Shown here: positions 19,677 through 38,923 of the stretch, one piece after another
Layout of the letters: each line of letters opens with the position of its first letter
Numbering within the stretch: the first letter of the stretch is position 1
Origin: a virus
Virus record (IMG/VR): IMGVR_UViG_3300023179_000230
Location: 1-40,340 of that record
Direction: 5' to 3' (one strand)
Length of the DNA: 40,340 nucleotides
The notes under the pieces: generated by a model
Told to the model about the DNA's origin: nothing
Database searches by the model: none
Seen by the model: the letters and a program-made list of their open reading frames with translations, nothing else
Position numbers and translations under genes: made by a program

Positions 19677-19750
19677 GGGGGCATAGCTCAATTGGCTAGA
19701 GCATCTGCTTTGCAAGCAGAAGGTTAAGGGTTCAATTCCCTTTGCCTCCA
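19677..19750 (+). tRNA. tRNA-Ala (anticodon TGC)
   Basis: A full cloverleaf can be drawn. The acceptor arms GGGGGCA and TGCCTCC pair with one G-U. The D arm is GCTC/GAGC around a loop containing TGG. The anticodon arm is TCTGC/GCAGA with loop TTTGCAA, giving anticodon TGC. The variable loop is AGGTT, and the T arm is AAGGG/CCCTT with loop TTCAATT. The discriminator base is A and the CCA end is not encoded (CGA follows). It sits alone between the SSB and nucleotidase genes. Confidence 0.95.
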
Positions 19751-19763
19751 CGAAAGGAATAAA

Positions 19764-20306
19764 ATGCAACTTGTAAATAAAGCGATTGCGCTTGACCTTG
19801 ATGGCGTAATCGCAGACATTGCTACGCCATTGTTTGATATTATATCTTCTCGCGGTGTATCAATAGAAGATATTGATTTAGAGTCTTGGATTATTTCTGA
19901 TACTAATGATAAAGATATTTTAGAAATATTCAATACACCTCTATTTTGGAAAAATATGAAGCCATATCAAGATGCATGGCATCAAGTTAATTATTGGTTT
20001 GCACTTGGTTATGATATACATATTGTTACAGCAAGAAGACAGCCAAATGCTGTAATGCAAACAGAGCCTTGGTTAAATGAGTGGAATATAAATACAAGAG
20101 CGCCAATCTTTTCTAAAATGGGTGATAAGATTTCACATATTAAAAAGATAGATCCATTATTTGTTGTAGAGGATAATCCTAAAGAAATTAGAATTTTGCA
20201 AGAAGCGGGGGTGAAATGTTATTTAAGAGCGCAAAGTTATAATCAGAAATATTGGAATGAATTTAACACTATTGAATCACTATACGATATTGACTTGGAG
20301 AAGTAA
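19764..20306 (+). CDS. HAD-family phosphatase, probable 5'-nucleotidase
   Basis: A 180-residue protein. DLDGVIAD at residues 11-18 contains the HAD nucleophile Asp11 and the general acid Asp13. HIVTARRQ at 87-93 gives motif II (Thr89), Lys118/Lys122 can serve as motif III, and VVEDNP at 134-139 is motif IV. Size and motif layout resemble the small 5'(3')-nucleotidases of the NT5C type often found in phages, which could adjust dNMP pools. AAAGGA precedes the start, and the stop overlaps the polymerase start as TAATG, coupling it to DNA synthesis. The exact substrate cannot be read from the sequence. Confidence 0.8.
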   Translation: MQLVNKAIALDLDGVIADIATPLFDIISSRGVSIEDIDLESWIISDTNDKDILEIFNTPLFWKNMKPYQDAWHQVNYWFALGYDIHIVTARRQPNAVMQTEPWLNEWNINTRAPIFSKMGDKISHIKKIDPLFVVEDNPKEIRILQEAGVKCYLRAQSYNQKYWNEFNTIESLYDIDLEK

Positions 20307-23300
20307 TGAATAACTTCGTTCACCTACATTGCCATTCTGAATATTCACTGCTGGATGGAATGTCAACGCCAGAAGAGATTGCTAAAATTACAAGTGTTAA
20401 TGGACAGTACGCTGCCGCAATTACAGATCACGGCTCAATGGCTGGCGTACTTCGTTTTCAAGAGGCATGTGTTGCTAACAAAGTAAAACCTCTCTTTGGT
20501 GTTGAAGCATACTTTGTTCCTTCTGTTAGTCGTGATGATGATGGTAAACATGAAAGACACCACTTAATTCTACTTGCCAAGACAAACACTGGTCTTGAAA
20601 AACTTTTTAAGATGTCCAAGATTGGTTGGACAGACAATTTTTATTACAAGCCAAGAATTGATTTTTCTCTACTAGAAGATTTGGTTGATGACGACATTGT
20701 TGCACTATCTGGGTGTATGGCTAGTTCTATCTGTAGAGCTATTGAGGCAGACAACTTCTCAAGAGCGCAGGAGTTGTCAGAGCGGTTTATAAAGATTTTT
20801 AAAGATGACTTCTATTACGAAGTGCAGGCTTGGAACAGTAAGAAGATTAATGATGGCATCATGCAATTGGCAAGCACATATAATAGAAAAGTCGTTGCGA
20901 CTGCCGACTGCCATTTCCCCAGCGCACATGATAAAGGCTGTGAAGAAGTCCTATTGTGCGTATCCCAATATCCTGGATTCTCACCAGCGGCTTTAAGGCA
21001 TGCCGAACAAGAAGCGGCAAAGATTGATAAGGCTGAAACAGATCTTGTAAAGAAGATTAATCAGATGTATCCAGACCGCCAATTGCGCTTTGATGAGATT
21101 AATCCTTATATTGCTAAAGCAGAAGAGATTGCGGGATGGTTCAAGACCGCCGGGTATGACCGTTCAGATATTCTAGAAAATACTCTTGAGGTGGCCGAGA
21201 AGTGTACTGCAAGCATTCAAAAGCGCCGCAATCTTTTGCCCAAATATATGAAGTCGCTTAACTCCGATGATTATCTAAAAGAAATGGCTGAATTTCGACT
21301 CAAAGAGCTAGGGCTGAATGATGAATACAAGACTCGACTCAATGAAGAGCTGGGGATTATCAAACAACTTGGCTTTGCCGATTATTTCTTAATCGTCTGG
21401 GACTTGGTGAAATGGGCGGATAATAATGGCATTGGTAGAGGTACAGGCAGAGGTTCGGTTGGCGGTAGTGTCTTGGCATATTTGCTGGAGATTACCAAAG
21501 TTGACCCTGTGAAATATAATCTGCTGTTTGCCCGATTTATTAATGCCGAGCGCAATGACTATCCCGACATTGACTTGGACTTTGAGGACAAACGCAGAAC
21601 AGAAGTTCGGGCTTATCTGGTAGAGCGTTGGGGTAAAGACAATGTAGCAGCAATTACCACCTACGGCACTTTTAAACCAAAGAGTGCGGTCAAAGATATT
21701 GCTCGCGTTCTACAAGTTCCATACAAAGAAACCAACAACATCACGCCATACTTTGAGACAATTGAAGAATTGCAGACCACACAGAAGGGCAAATTATTCT
21801 GTTCAAAGTATCCCGATGTGCCAAAACTTGCCAAAAGACTGGAAGGGCGTATTCGTAACGCAGGCGTACATGCTGCTGGCATGGTTGTATCGTCAATCCC
21901 GCTTACACAGGTTTGCCCAATTGAGACACGCAAAGACACCGATGGTGAGGGCAGGGCGGTTGTAACAGCCTTTGATATGACCGACGCAGAGGCGGTCGGG
22001 CTTATTAAAATTGACATTTTGGGGCTTCGCACCGTATCTGTCATTAAAGACGCTCTAGGGATGATTAGGAAGCGTTATGGGGCAGATGTAGAAGCTCTTT
22101 CATTAGGGCTAGATGACCCCGAAGTGTATCGGAATTTTAATGAGGGCAATACCGTTGGCGTATTCCAGACAGATGCTGCCGCTTATCGTAATTTGATCGA
22201 GCGTATGGGTATTGACAACTTCAATGATCTTGTAGTGTCAAACGCTCTAGTTAGACCCGGTGCTCTGCTCTCACAGGGTGAGCGCTATATTGATTGTAAA
22301 AAAGGTGTCAAGCCTGCTTATTATCCTGACGAGTCAGTTAAGGCTATTCTGGAAGAGACATATGGCACGGTTATTTTCCAAGAGCAGTTGATGCAAATGT
22401 GTGTGAAGCTGTCTGGCTTTTCATGGTCAGATGCTGATAAATTGCGTAAGATTATCGGTAAGAAGCGTGATGCCGCTGAGTTTGAGCAATACAAGGATAA
22501 GTTTATTAACAACTCAATCCTGCCTAAATCAGAGGCAAAGCAGATGTGGTCAGAGTTTGAACTTTCGGCTCTATATATGTTTAATAAGTCTCACGCGGTT
22601 GCATATTCAATGTTGTCTTATCAAACCATGTGGCTAAAGGTCAATTATCCGTCTGAATATCTTTGGGCTTTGTTGTTCAATGAAGATGTCGGTGAAAAGA
22701 TTACAGCCTATCTTATGGAGGCACAGCGTCTTGATATCCCCATTTTGCCGCCAGATGTTAATTTGTCGGATGAATTCTTCTCTATTGATTATTCAGCAGA
22801 AAAGCCAGCCATTCGTTTTGGTCTATCTAATGTCTTGTCTTGCGGTCGGGCAGCAATTGCAGAAATTCTTGCTAAGCGCCCATTCAACTGTTATGAAGAA
22901 TTTGATGCCAAGTGCTCAAAGAGTGCGGTTAAAAAACCTTTGAGAGAAAACTTTGACAAAGTTGGGGCTTTCGGTTCTCTTGGTTATATATCTCAGTTTG
23001 ATCATAAACGGTACTATCTGCCAATACTTGGCTTTTCAATTGAAGATACTGAGAAAAATGAGATTGATGTTGTCATTGATAATCTAAGTGATTTTCATGA
23101 AACCAATTCTCCACTAATGCTTGTTAAAGCAATTATTAGATCAACTAAAAAGACACCACAATATCTCCGGGTTGAATTAGAAGACTTGTCGGGGTCTGCA
23201 ACAATATTTGCAGAAAGGAATACAGAGTTATCAACTAGAGATCATATTTATGCGTTAATTGGAGATAGAACATTGCATTATTTTTGTGATGTTTACAATT

Positions 23301-23698
23301 ATATTGATACTCCATTGCATGAGTTTATTAAACTTAAGATGCAAGGCATTAATCACGAATATGCATGGCTATACAATCATGGTCTTGGTGATGTAGATAA
23401 TGATAAAACATTATTGTACATTTTCAATTTGAGAATATTTAAAACATCTCGCGGTTTTGATATGGCAAATATTTATTGCTGGGATGGTAAAAGAATGTTT
23501 AAGATTGTCGTATTTGCCAGCGTGTTGAAAAAAGTAAAGGGCATCCTTAAACAAAATGCTTGGTATGCAGCTAAAATTGATAAAATTGATGAAAAAAATC
23601 CGCTGGTGCAAATTGATTCGTATAAACTTGCATCTTCAGATGCTCTCATTACTGTTAATGATTTTATTAAAAGAAAGAATTTGGTAGCACAAAAATGA
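20306..23698 (+). CDS. dnaE: DNA polymerase III alpha subunit (DnaE, family C)
   Basis: A 1130-residue polymerase, close to the usual length of bacterial DnaE. The PHP domain starts at residue 5 with HLHCHSEYSLLDG and continues with ITDHGSMAG and FGVEAYF, so its metal-binding residues look intact and it may proofread. The palm shows GRGTGRGSVGGS and PDIDLDF (Asp421, Asp423), and IDILGL gives the third acid (Asp570). VFQTDAAAYRNLI, VSNALVRPG and FNKSHAVAYS belong to the fingers. A helix-hairpin region and an OB domain (about 940-1000) follow. It would be the phage replicative polymerase. The first 900 codons are clearly GC-richer than the last 230 (see findings). Confidence 0.96.
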   Translation: MNNFVHLHCHSEYSLLDGMSTPEEIAKITSVNGQYAAAITDHGSMAGVLRFQEACVANKVKPLFGVEAYFVPSVSRDDDGKHERHHLILLAKTNTGLEKLFKMSKIGWTDNFYYKPRIDFSLLEDLVDDDIVALSGCMASSICRAIEADNFSRAQELSERFIKIFKDDFYYEVQAWNSKKINDGIMQLASTYNRKVVATADCHFPSAHDKGCEEVLLCVSQYPGFSPAALRHAEQEAAKIDKAETDLVKKINQMYPDRQLRFDEINPYIAKAEEIAGWFKTAGYDRSDILENTLEVAEKCTASIQKRRNLLPKYMKSLNSDDYLKEMAEFRLKELGLNDEYKTRLNEELGIIKQLGFADYFLIVWDLVKWADNNGIGRGTGRGSVGGSVLAYLLEITKVDPVKYNLLFARFINAERNDYPDIDLDFEDKRRTEVRAYLVERWGKDNVAAITTYGTFKPKSAVKDIARVLQVPYKETNNITPYFETIEELQTTQKGKLFCSKYPDVPKLAKRLEGRIRNAGVHAAGMVVSSIPLTQVCPIETRKDTDGEGRAVVTAFDMTDAEAVGLIKIDILGLRTVSVIKDALGMIRKRYGADVEALSLGLDDPEVYRNFNEGNTVGVFQTDAAAYRNLIERMGIDNFNDLVVSNALVRPGALLSQGERYIDCKKGVKPAYYPDESVKAILEETYGTVIFQEQLMQMCVKLSGFSWSDADKLRKIIGKKRDAAEFEQYKDKFINNSILPKSEAKQMWSEFELSALYMFNKSHAVAYSMLSYQTMWLKVNYPSEYLWALLFNEDVGEKITAYLMEAQRLDIPILPPDVNLSDEFFSIDYSAEKPAIRFGLSNVLSCGRAAIAEILAKRPFNCYEEFDAKCSKSAVKKPLRENFDKVGAFGSLGYISQFDHKRYYLPILGFSIEDTEKNEIDVVIDNLSDFHETNSPLMLVKAIIRSTKKTPQYLRVELEDLSGSATIFAERNTELSTRDHIYALIGDRTLHYFCDVYNYIDTPLHEFIKLKMQGINHEYAWLYNHGLGDVDNDKTLLYIFNLRIFKTSRGFDMANIYCWDGKRMFKIVVFASVLKKVKGILKQNAWYAAKIDKIDEKNPLVQIDSYKLASSDALITVNDFIKRKNLVAQK

Positions 23699-34461: not shown

Positions 34462-36192
34462 ATGAGTGACTTTATTGGATTAAATTTAGATTTTAATGAC
34501 TTTGATCGACTACTTAGACAAGACGATCTAGTTGAAACTCCTGTCCCGATTCAAGTATTTGTTCAGGATAAAAAATATTTAGGTTTACCACCATTGTCTC
34601 CAATACAAGAAGAGATCGTTAAACATAGTACTCAAATACTTAAAGAAAAGACTTTGATATCTATATACGGCGAGAAAGAAGGGCGCGAGTATTATCAAAA
34701 ATATACTGATAACGAAGTAATATGCATGTTGGGCAAAGGATCTGGTAAAGATCATTGCTCAAGAATTTCAATCGCTTATACAGCGTACATACTCCATTGT
34801 TTGAGGGATCCATTAAGTTATTACGGTAAAGCTCACGGTGTTTATATTGACTTGCTTAATCTTGCTGTTAACGCACAGCAAGCACAAAGAGTTTTCTTTG
34901 AACCGCTAAAGAACTTATTATTAAGCTCTCCATATTTTAATGAAATTGGTTTTGAGCCAAGAGTGTCAGAAATATTTTTCTTTTCAAGGCCGGTAAGATG
35001 CTTTTCAGGTCACTCTGAAAGTGAAGGTTGGGAAGGTTATGAAGTATTAACTGTGGTTTTGGATGAAATTGCAGCTTTTAAAACTGATGCAGAATTGAAA
35101 GGTGAAACAAGATCTAAAGGATCGGCATCGGCAATTTATAACATGAGCAAATTATCAGTTATGTCGCGTTTTCCAGAAGTCGGTAAAGTTATTCTTCTTT
35201 CATTCCCTCGATATAAAGGAGACTTCATTGAACAAAGATTTTATGGGGCTAAGGAAAAGAAAGAACCTAAGACTTGGTTCATAAAAGCTGCTACTTGGGA
35301 GGTAAATCCAACGATTAAGAGAGAGCAATTGGAATCTGAATATATTAGAAATCCGGTTGAAGCTGCTGCTCGATTTGAATGTAATCCTCCGAATATGGAA
35401 GATGCTTACTTTAGAGATCCTGAATTGGTTAGAAAAGCTTTTATGTATGGTGAAGATCCTATTAATGAAGACGGTACATTTAAAAAATGGTTTAATAATA
35501 CAGATCAACATGTTCGTTTTATTCATGTTGACTTAGCGCTCAAAAGAGACCGCGCGGCGTTAAGCTTAGTGCATTCTCCTGGATTAAGAGAAGTCAAAAC
35601 ATTAAATGGCGTTGAAAAGCTTCCGGTAATTAATGTTGATTTAGTTTATTCTTGGGAGGCCGGCATTAATGAAGAAATTAATTTCTCAAGCATCAGGCAA
35701 ATGATTATTGATCTTTGTCGTAAATTTGATGTAGCTAAAGTTACATTTGACAGATGGCAATCTATCGAGATGATTCAAAGTTTAAGATCATTAACAATTA
35801 ATGCTGATTTCCATAGCGTAAAGAAAACAGACTACGATACATTAACATCTGCTATATATGATGGTAGATTGCGTGGCTATTGGAATGAATTATTAGTTGA
35901 AGAAGAACTTCTCAAATTACGTTTATTTTCAAATAATAAAATTGATCACCCAACAAAAGGATCAAAAGACTTAGCAGATGCTATTGCCGGTGCTGTATTT
36001 AATTGTGTAGAAAATATTTCAATAAGTAGTGAAATTGAAATTGAATTATTGCAACCAGATAAATGGCACGAGATAAATGAGGAAATGCCTGATTTTGGCA
36101 CTGTATCATTGTATAATAGCGGAATGGGGAGATTTGAACAAGGATTTTCCGAAAAGAAATCGGAGGCTAATAAATGGTTGGAAACTCTTTAG
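34462..36192 (+). CDS. terL: Terminase large subunit
   Basis: A 576-residue packaging motor. The ATPase domain has Walker A LGKGSGKD (Lys96) and Walker B TVVLDEIAAF (Asp201, Glu202). The nuclease domain has FIHVDLALKRDRAAL (Asp357), VTFDRWQS and KDLADAIAGAVFN (Asp503, Asp506), giving the three acids of the RNase H-like cutter. Length is normal. It would drive DNA into the prohead and cut it to size. It is preceded by a rich regulatory region and appears to have its own promoter. No portal or capsid gene follows, which is unusual (see findings). Confidence 0.95.
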   Translation: MSDFIGLNLDFNDFDRLLRQDDLVETPVPIQVFVQDKKYLGLPPLSPIQEEIVKHSTQILKEKTLISIYGEKEGREYYQKYTDNEVICMLGKGSGKDHCSRISIAYTAYILHCLRDPLSYYGKAHGVYIDLLNLAVNAQQAQRVFFEPLKNLLLSSPYFNEIGFEPRVSEIFFFSRPVRCFSGHSESEGWEGYEVLTVVLDEIAAFKTDAELKGETRSKGSASAIYNMSKLSVMSRFPEVGKVILLSFPRYKGDFIEQRFYGAKEKKEPKTWFIKAATWEVNPTIKREQLESEYIRNPVEAAARFECNPPNMEDAYFRDPELVRKAFMYGEDPINEDGTFKKWFNNTDQHVRFIHVDLALKRDRAALSLVHSPGLREVKTLNGVEKLPVINVDLVYSWEAGINEEINFSSIRQMIIDLCRKFDVAKVTFDRWQSIEMIQSLRSLTINADFHSVKKTDYDTLTSAIYDGRLRGYWNELLVEEELLKLRLFSNNKIDHPTKGSKDLADAIAGAVFNCVENISISSEIEIELLQPDKWHEINEEMPDFGTVSLYNSGMGRFEQGFSEKKSEANKWLETL

Positions 36193-37775: not shown

Positions 37776-37802
37776 GTAATATTACAGGGCTGTAATCTTA
37801 CA
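37776..37802. repeat. Two TGTAA/TTACA dyads matching the terL cluster
   Basis: GGTAATATTACAG (37775-37787) holds the perfect palindrome GTAATATTAC. TGTAATCTTACA (37791-37802) is identical to the site at 34336-34347 before terL. They sit 15 bases apart centre to centre. Confidence 0.75.
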
Positions 37803-37836
37803 TGGCCCCTTCGTGTTTTTAGCTAATTCATTATAT

Positions 37837-37895: not shown

Positions 37896-37993
37896 CTTAA
37901 TTAATAGATAAATTGAGCATCTGTCTGATCTTATCCCCGATCCAAAAGAAATCTGAGAAATCTATATTTTGAGGTTTTTTTTGACCTGTTCTC

Positions 37994-38003
37994 GTGATAG
38001 TGT
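37994..38003 (+). promoter_or_regulatory. Possible extended -10 element of the last operon
   Basis: GTGATAGTGT matches GTGATAGTAT before recA in nine of ten bases. TTGACC at 37981-37986 is too close to act as its -35 box. A transcript from here would begin just at the start of the long hairpin. Confidence 0.35.
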
Positions 38004-38006
38004 GGT

Positions 38007-38078
38007 GGCACAAATGGCGATACATTATCTAACCAATAGTTTCACTAATAGGTTAGGTTTTGTATTGCCATTTGTGCC
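38007..38078 (+). repeat. 72-nt inverted repeat (long hairpin)
   Basis: The arms 38007-38034 and 38051-38078 are complementary at 24 of 28 positions. They start GGCACAAATGG and end CCATTTGTGCC. The 16-base loop contains a smaller dyad, TAGT-TTC-ACTA. It ends 46 bases before the next start codon. Confidence 0.85.
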
Positions 38079-38124
38079 GCTATTTGTATCGTGTAAAAAA
38101 TCAGTTACAAGAAAGGGTTAGGGT

Positions 38125-38562
38125 ATGGATTTGTCAATTTTTGACGCTTTGGTTGGGCTATCTATCTCAGATAGAAAAACCGACTATGGCAAGGTAATGA
38201 AATTTGTTACTGTTGAGCAAGACGGTAAGACAACTGTTTATGCTGTCCTTACATCTATTGGTGATAGTGGTAAAAATAAAGCGATTACGCTCAGGTTTTT
38301 GTCTGAGTTATTGGCTTCGCAAAAAATGTTTCTTCGTCGCAAAGATGACGGTAAGTTTTTTATTGTGGCTTATCCAGAAGGTCACAAATACGCTAAGCGT
38401 GTATTTTCTGGTAAGCGCATCAATAAATACTCTGTTGTTGGTATCGGCAGTATCAACAATAGTGTAATCATTGACGGTGAACGTATTGACATTACAAAAT
38501 ACGTTTCATCAAATGAAAGTACAAAAGTAAGTATCAAAAACATCCAAGAAAGGACAAACTAA
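38125..38562 (+). CDS. Unknown protein, first gene of the last operon
   Basis: A 145-residue protein with GAAAGGGTTAGGG before the ATG. It has a beta-rich first half (KFVTVEQDGKTTVYAVLTSIG), a short helix (LRFLSELLASQK), and basic strands (FLRRKDDGKFFIVAYPEGHKYAKRVF) that could bind nucleic acid. No family is recognised. It overlaps the next gene by one base (TAATG). The long hairpin and possible switch in its leader suggest that the whole operon is controlled through this gene. Confidence 0.7.
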   Translation: MDLSIFDALVGLSISDRKTDYGKVMKFVTVEQDGKTTVYAVLTSIGDSGKNKAITLRFLSELLASQKMFLRRKDDGKFFIVAYPEGHKYAKRVFSGKRINKYSVVGIGSINNSVIIDGERIDITKYVSSNESTKVSIKNIQERTN

Positions 38563-38903
38563 TGAATAACGATACAACTAAGTTAGTTGAATTTGCTTAT
38601 GAAGTTTATAAATTTGATCATACTTATAATTATTCAGATGATGGTCGAGTTTGGAGAAATGGAGAAGCGTTGAAGAAAAGCCTTACTGAAAAGGCTCAGT
38701 CTATGAATTTGTCTATTAGTGACAAAATGCTTATGATTGAAGTCTTCAAAACTCTTTGGAATGATAATAAGTATCGTCAAGATGATGATAAATGGGAATT
38801 GATTGATGCTAATCATATCCAATGGATTTACAAAGCGAGTATGTATCGCATTATTGGAATAACTGAACAAGATTATTTGTTTATTCCGGCCGGTAATCAA
38901 TAG
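38562..38903 (+). CDS. Unknown small acidic protein
   Basis: A 113-residue protein with CAAGAAAGGACAA before the ATG. It is rich in Tyr, Trp, Asp and Asn, with alternating helices and no cysteine. NLSISDKMLMIEVFKTLWND looks like a folded helical core. No family recognised. Size, charge and operon setting are typical of small early phage proteins that act on host functions, which is inference. Confidence 0.68.
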   Translation: MNNDTTKLVEFAYEVYKFDHTYNYSDDGRVWRNGEALKKSLTEKAQSMNLSISDKMLMIEVFKTLWNDNKYRQDDDKWELIDANHIQWIYKASMYRIIGITEQDYLFIPAGNQ

Positions 38904-38923
38904 TTACAAGAAAGGTAACAGCA

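Follow-up and report, generated by a model that had tools for sequence, protein, structure and literature searches.

The DNA analysed here, which we call the window, is the whole of an IMG/VR virus record, 40,340 bases of an uncultivated phage with a GC content of 36%. Its relatives in IMG/VR reach 105–109 kb, so the window is a fragment of a larger phage genome. The terminase (positions 34462–36192) is nearest to those of Streptomyces phages of the Karimac group (Stanwilliamsviridae) and of Gordonia phages, with at most 42% identity, which points to an actinobacterium as the probable host; a search of bacterial genomes for relatives or a host contig found none. The window also carries a tRNA-Ala gene (19677–19751) and encodes a protein of 1130 amino acids that looks, by eye, like a DNA polymerase III alpha subunit (20306–23698). 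The first 102 bases of a 105,121-base relative (L128 1–102) recur at its position 104306 (L133 4306–4407), so this record is possibly an almost complete genome that carries a terminal repeat.

Between the late end of the window (the terminase and a 285-aa gene) and a series of small genes lies a leader region that contains a large hairpin and precedes a gene for a 145-aa protein (Table 1). All relatives of this gene were collected, giving 42 loci with 30 distinct leaders (numbered with the prefix L below); the related leaders come from freshwater phages. The leader DNA had no match among 50,697 phage records, nor did the 145-aa protein among phage records. A search across IMG/VR with the promoter plus ACAAATG pattern returned 19 stretches, among which a leader ORF with a hairpin was found only in members already known; the others look like chance occurrences.

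Table 1. Features of the leader region, by position in the window
Feature	Position	Strand	Basis
TGAGG-T7 tract, 23 nt (fixed) from the -10 box	37970–37981	+	conserved as AGGTTTTTTT
Extended -10 element TGA-TAGTGT (TGNTANNNT), putative operon promoter	37995–38003	+	conservation, actinobacterial form
72-nt hairpin	38007–38078	+	folding, covariation
Outer stem, 18 bp, no mismatch	38007–38024 with 38061–38078	+	folding
Inner stem, 8 bp	38027–38034 with 38051–38058	+	folding
uORF, 35 codons, MAIHYLTNSFTNRLGFVLPFVPLFVSCKKSVTRKG; start codon within the 5' arm of the hairpin	38014–38121	+	ORF in 30/30 leaders
GAAAGGG, ribosome-binding site of the 145-aa gene, in the end of the uORF, outside the hairpin	38111–38117	+	sequence; relatives
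145-aa gene, the operon's first full-length gene	38125–38562	+	family; weak fold resemblance

The preliminary description of this DNA reported a near-perfect hairpin whose 28-base arms match at 24 positions, and RNA folding bears this out. The arms form 24 Watson-Crick and 2 G-U pairs, with a further 4-bp stem at the apex, and the folding energy of the 72 nt is -42.5 kcal/mol (z -10.6), compared with -11.7 +/- 2.9 kcal/mol for 200 dinucleotide shuffles, none of which is as stable. It is the strongest hairpin in the window and the longest close inverted repeat across the 40 kb. The statement that it is not a standard terminator also holds; an intrinsic terminator was rejected because no T tract follows the stem, the DNA 3' of it reading GCTATTTG... 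and A6 instead. For the suggested roles as a small RNA and as a single-strand origin no evidence was found; the origin, and a small RNA with its own terminator, were considered and dropped. An Rfam 15 search of the window gave no family above the gathering score at the hairpin and found the tRNA alone. There are strong hairpins elsewhere in the 105-kb relative, several of them terminator-like, and none was seen over a start codon.

What that description overlooked is a short open reading frame (uORF) inside which the hairpin lies, covering its ATG. An ORF of 31–44 codons is present at the equivalent place in all 30 distinct leaders, beginning 99–128 nt before the downstream gene, and it keeps its position even where the downstream protein is only about 26–34% identical to that of the window. 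Its stop overlaps the next start as ATGA in 14 leaders (a gap of -4), lies 3 nt before it in 8, the window among them, and has gaps between -8 and +15 in the others. By shuffling, the chance of an open ORF is 2–25% per leader, with a product over 15 representatives of about 10^-18, and the other two frames contain a mean of 2–3 stops.

The uORF has no obvious Shine-Dalgarno sequence. The 145-aa gene has the ribosome-binding site GAAAGGG, and a purine run occupies the matching position in most relatives; in the window this site lies outside the hairpin, so the earlier proposal that the hairpin hides the ribosome site fails, and it is the start codon of the uORF that is hidden instead. A riboswitch or a ribosome-mediated attenuator was set aside on the same ground and because no terminator lies between the uORF and the gene, and a put-like antiterminator because no RNA sequence is conserved between clades. 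An identical 14-mer, AGTTACAAGAAAGG, precedes two genes of the operon (38103–38116 and 38902–38915), a case of repeated ribosome-binding sites.

When the 30 distinct leaders are aligned on the ORF start, every one shows a TANNNT box, which precedes the uORF ATG by 7–11 nt (10 nt in the window) and has the extended form TGNTANNNT in the window's clade and the form CGATANNNT in many others. In mycobacteria TANNNT is centred 7–12 nt before the transcription start and no -35 element was found (PMC3898074); the window's box matches this actinobacterial TANNNT or TGNTANNNT form (PMC3898074). By the mycobacterial spacing, transcription of the window's operon is predicted to start at about 38008–38012, 2–6 nt before the AUG, and the same spacing predicts a leader of 0–6 nt before the uORF ATG over the 30 leaders. 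The preliminary description had the RNA from a -10-like element begin with the hairpin, and the conserved TANNNT, with a predicted start within a few bases of 38007, agrees with this. Covarying pairs 2 and 3 of the outer stem (see below) require a start at or before 38008 and so suggest the early edge of the predicted range. The promoter motif did not occur elsewhere in the relatives' genomes above a reversed-pattern control.

Upstream of the -10 box the 30-leader alignment also conserves AGGTTTTTTT at a fixed distance, a sequence that is unique in the window and is putatively the tail of an upstream terminator and/or a promoter element. Just 5' of the promoter, at 37943–37982, is an A/U-rich inverted repeat (CAAAAGAAATCTGAG..GAGGTTTTTTTTG) that is kept in relatives and resembles a weak terminator for the preceding operon. 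After the 285-aa gene, a terminator-like site (37787–37808) is made up of a GGGCTGTAATCTTACATGGCCC stem with T-rich DNA behind it.

Compensatory changes, the check that the preliminary description had proposed, are present in the outer stem across eight related leaders (the window, L085–L088 and L090–L092) whose 72 nt align without gaps. In these homologs 84.7% of outer-stem cells are paired, and 6 of the 18 pairs show double changes (10 cells in total); for example GGCAC/GTGCC in the window is GATAC/GTATT in L086 and GAGAC/GTCTC in L091, and CGATACA/TGTATTG in the window is CGACCTA/TAGGTCG in L086. The covariation score of 0.272 compares with 0.185 +/- 0.025 in shuffles, of which 1 in 500 is as high, and with at most 0.09 for slid versions of the pairing; with few and related sequences, these statistics are supportive and not final. 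Mismatched positions read on the + strand are G-U in 7 columns and A-C in 1, whereas a DNA palindrome would show both alike, which favours a conserved RNA element of the + strand. Just 3' of the hairpin the window carries 12 nt that L085–L088 lack (38079–38090), inserted in frame and resembling a copied ATTTGTNNCG unit. Despite this insertion after the 3' arm, the window's pairing at 72-nt spacing is kept (reading by eye), and its 3' arm may have been replaced via the insertion with pairing and spacing retained.

Most other clades also have a strong hairpin in the leader ORF, but its sequence is unrelated and it often sits mid-ORF (TATCACACTA..TAGTGTGATA in L110, ATACACACACAATTTGTGTGTGTAT in L116, TTAGCCAAAGTATTATCTTTGGCTAA in L107 and GGCACACGACCTCGTGTGCT in L022). 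The mean z is -2.8 over the 30 leaders and -0.8 over 143 ordinary gene starts from these phages, the lowest of which reaches -5.3; the window's leader is at -7.8. Exceptions with weak structure are L090 (z +1.2), L094 (z -0.5), L124 and L126 (range +1.2 to -0.5). Closure of the AUG is seen in the clade of the window and in neighbouring leaders (L089, L091, L092, L097 and L098 as well); in the distant clades L121, L110, L116 and L022, where the hairpin is in mid-uORF, the AUG is only partly paired. By these comparisons a structured, translated leader appears to be the usual form, and start-codon closure to be particular to the window's clade and those nearest to it, not shared by the whole family.

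We favour, by somewhat better than an even chance, a near-leaderless, translated uORF that is coupled to the 145-aa gene, with the hairpin acting as a timed gate over its AUG. Transcription would begin a few bases 5' of the uORF AUG, and the mRNA would thus be near-leaderless. As long as this RNA is no longer than ~60 nt the AUG should be mostly single-stranded, so that a ribosome could load; once it has grown to about 75 nt, the 3' arm would pair with the 5' arm and lock the AUG. Computed folding is in keeping with such a sequence of events: with the first 58 nt alone the AUG is unpaired with a probability of 68% in the window and 92–99% in L085–L088, and at 80 nt of RNA this falls to 0.00 in all five. 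A ribosome that had loaded in time would translate the uORF, hold the stem open, stop 3 nt before the 145-aa start (or at the ATGA overlap of many relatives) and might re-initiate there. Transcripts that missed the loading window would be closed, with the 5' end of the untranslated mRNA perhaps shielded, and the hairpin would thereby set the number of transcripts that are translated. Counting against this model are the window's exposed ribosome-binding site for the 145-aa gene, which would permit direct initiation without the uORF, the only partial pairing of the AUG in distant clades, and the weak structure of L090 and L094. A stricter form, which we regard as doubtful, would have the AUG open only during the first ~60–70 nt, so that only transcripts catching a ribosome at once express the operon and its possibly CarD/CdnL-like first protein, with the unrelated hairpins of other clades working likewise.

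The hairpin might instead be a 5'-terminal stabiliser of the mRNA that blocks pyrophosphohydrolase and RNase E or RNase J, the uORF being merely a translated spacer. Its position on, or only a few bases from, the predicted transcript start, its very stable fold (-42.5 to -49 kcal/mol) and the freedom with which its sequence varies provided that pairing is kept would all suit such a role, but this leaves unexplained both the open, coupled ORF in every one of the 30 leaders and the hairpins of other clades that stand 35–60 nt from the 5' end, and we consider it unlikely, though compatible with what is seen in the window. The leader of E. coli ompA, a 5'-terminal stem-loop stabiliser, likewise puts a stable hairpin at the mRNA 5' end; there the stem-loop belongs to a leader that is not translated, and the start codon stays accessible, whereas the phage hairpin covers that of the uORF.

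That the small protein itself matters, as a fast-changing phage microprotein of 31–44 amino acids whose level the hairpin tunes, seems to us quite unlikely. A hydrophobic middle and a basic C-terminus recur in the peptides, the ORF is always present, and pN/pS is 0.59 in the uORF frame, compared with 0.68 and 1.34 for the other two (from non-independent pairs), values that point to weak peptide-level selection at best. Yet almost no residue is common between clades, and over the conserved AAAAAATCAGATA DNA the C-terminal reading frame itself differs (KKSDxRKG in some clades, IKNQIxER in others), as if only translation mattered. We therefore think that what has been preserved is leader translation more than the peptide. 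The AAAAAATCAGATA-like stretch, conserved as DNA across clades while its reading frame changes, comes before AGTTACAAGAAAGG.

A palindrome acting as DNA is very unlikely in our view, whether as the operator of a dimeric repressor by the -10 box or as a cruciform or replication signal, with the pairing of the arms arising from protein binding or template switching. Palindromes do vary among the clades, as immunity operators do, and template switching between arms can produce apparent compensatory changes like those seen here; but 18-bp arms set 36 nt apart do not resemble an operator, the neighbourhood yielded no identified repressor gene, and the + strand excess of G-U over A-C described above argues for RNA. 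Least probable of all is an RNase III processing site that separates the leader from the coding RNA as in T7 early transcripts: while the window clade's perfect 18-bp stem plus 8 bp is a possible RNase III substrate, the ~9–13-bp stems of other clades are short for a typical one and cleavage would destroy the uORF.

A Pfam search with the 145-aa protein gave nothing above threshold, only scattered sub-threshold matches. Two AlphaFold models of different homologs have a pLDDT of 64, better over the first ~75 residues, and for both the best solved match is the N-terminal, RNA-polymerase-binding domain of CdnL, with weak E-values (0.035 and 0.15); CarD and the Tudor (RID/Tudor-like) domains of Mfd and UvrD are also among the top fold matches. 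Sequence profiles did not confirm the CdnL-like resemblance, and a phage RNA-polymerase-binding protein under translational control is offered as a lead only. If the protein does bind RNA polymerase, the leader would be a translational control of a host-takeover regulator.

Across a large, uncultivated group of freshwater phages, these leaders document conserved, apparently coupled and near-leaderless uORFs at the start of one operon, ORFs of a length that standard gene callers easily miss. Because the 30 distinct leaders are natural variants that differ in peptide but share one arrangement, selection on leader translation as opposed to the peptide becomes directly testable, and the idea that a 5' hairpin over a leaderless AUG sets a time window for ribosome loading could be tested with variants.

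Mycobacteria commonly make leaderless transcripts with a small ORF that finishes where the next gene starts, and there the peptide need not be conserved, only the arrangement (PMC4633059). The phage leaders are like these (Shell et al. 2015, PMC4633059) in having a small ORF first on the predicted transcript behind a TANNNT promoter, an AUG which by the predicted start is no more than ~5 nt from the 5' end, and a stop at or overlapping the next start (NTGA), with the arrangement again kept where the peptide is not. Coupled leaderless uORFs are recognized as ORFs of 5–50 codons directly upstream of a gene, and all 30 phage leaders have one in this range, with the NTGA junction present as ATGA in 14 and a gap of no more than 15 nt in all. 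They differ in being phage-borne, in a leader predicted to be 0–6 nt rather than proven to be zero, and in a conserved hairpin that, in the window's clade, includes the ORF's own start codon. In M. tuberculosis the expression of PPE2 depends on translation of a uORF via an AUGA overlap (PMC11260477), and the coupling proposed here would be similar to the termination-reinitiation of uPPE2-PPE2. RNA structure controls uORF initiation in the uPPE2-PPE2 and Mbox-uORF leaders (PMC11260477, PMC12810186), as we propose for the phage; those leaders combine ligand aptamers with a uORF Shine-Dalgarno sequence, whereas the phage leader has neither an aptamer match nor an obvious Shine-Dalgarno sequence. 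By these likenesses, the best reading of the phage leader is as a phage version of the mycobacterial coupled leaderless uORFs, unusual in its structured start.
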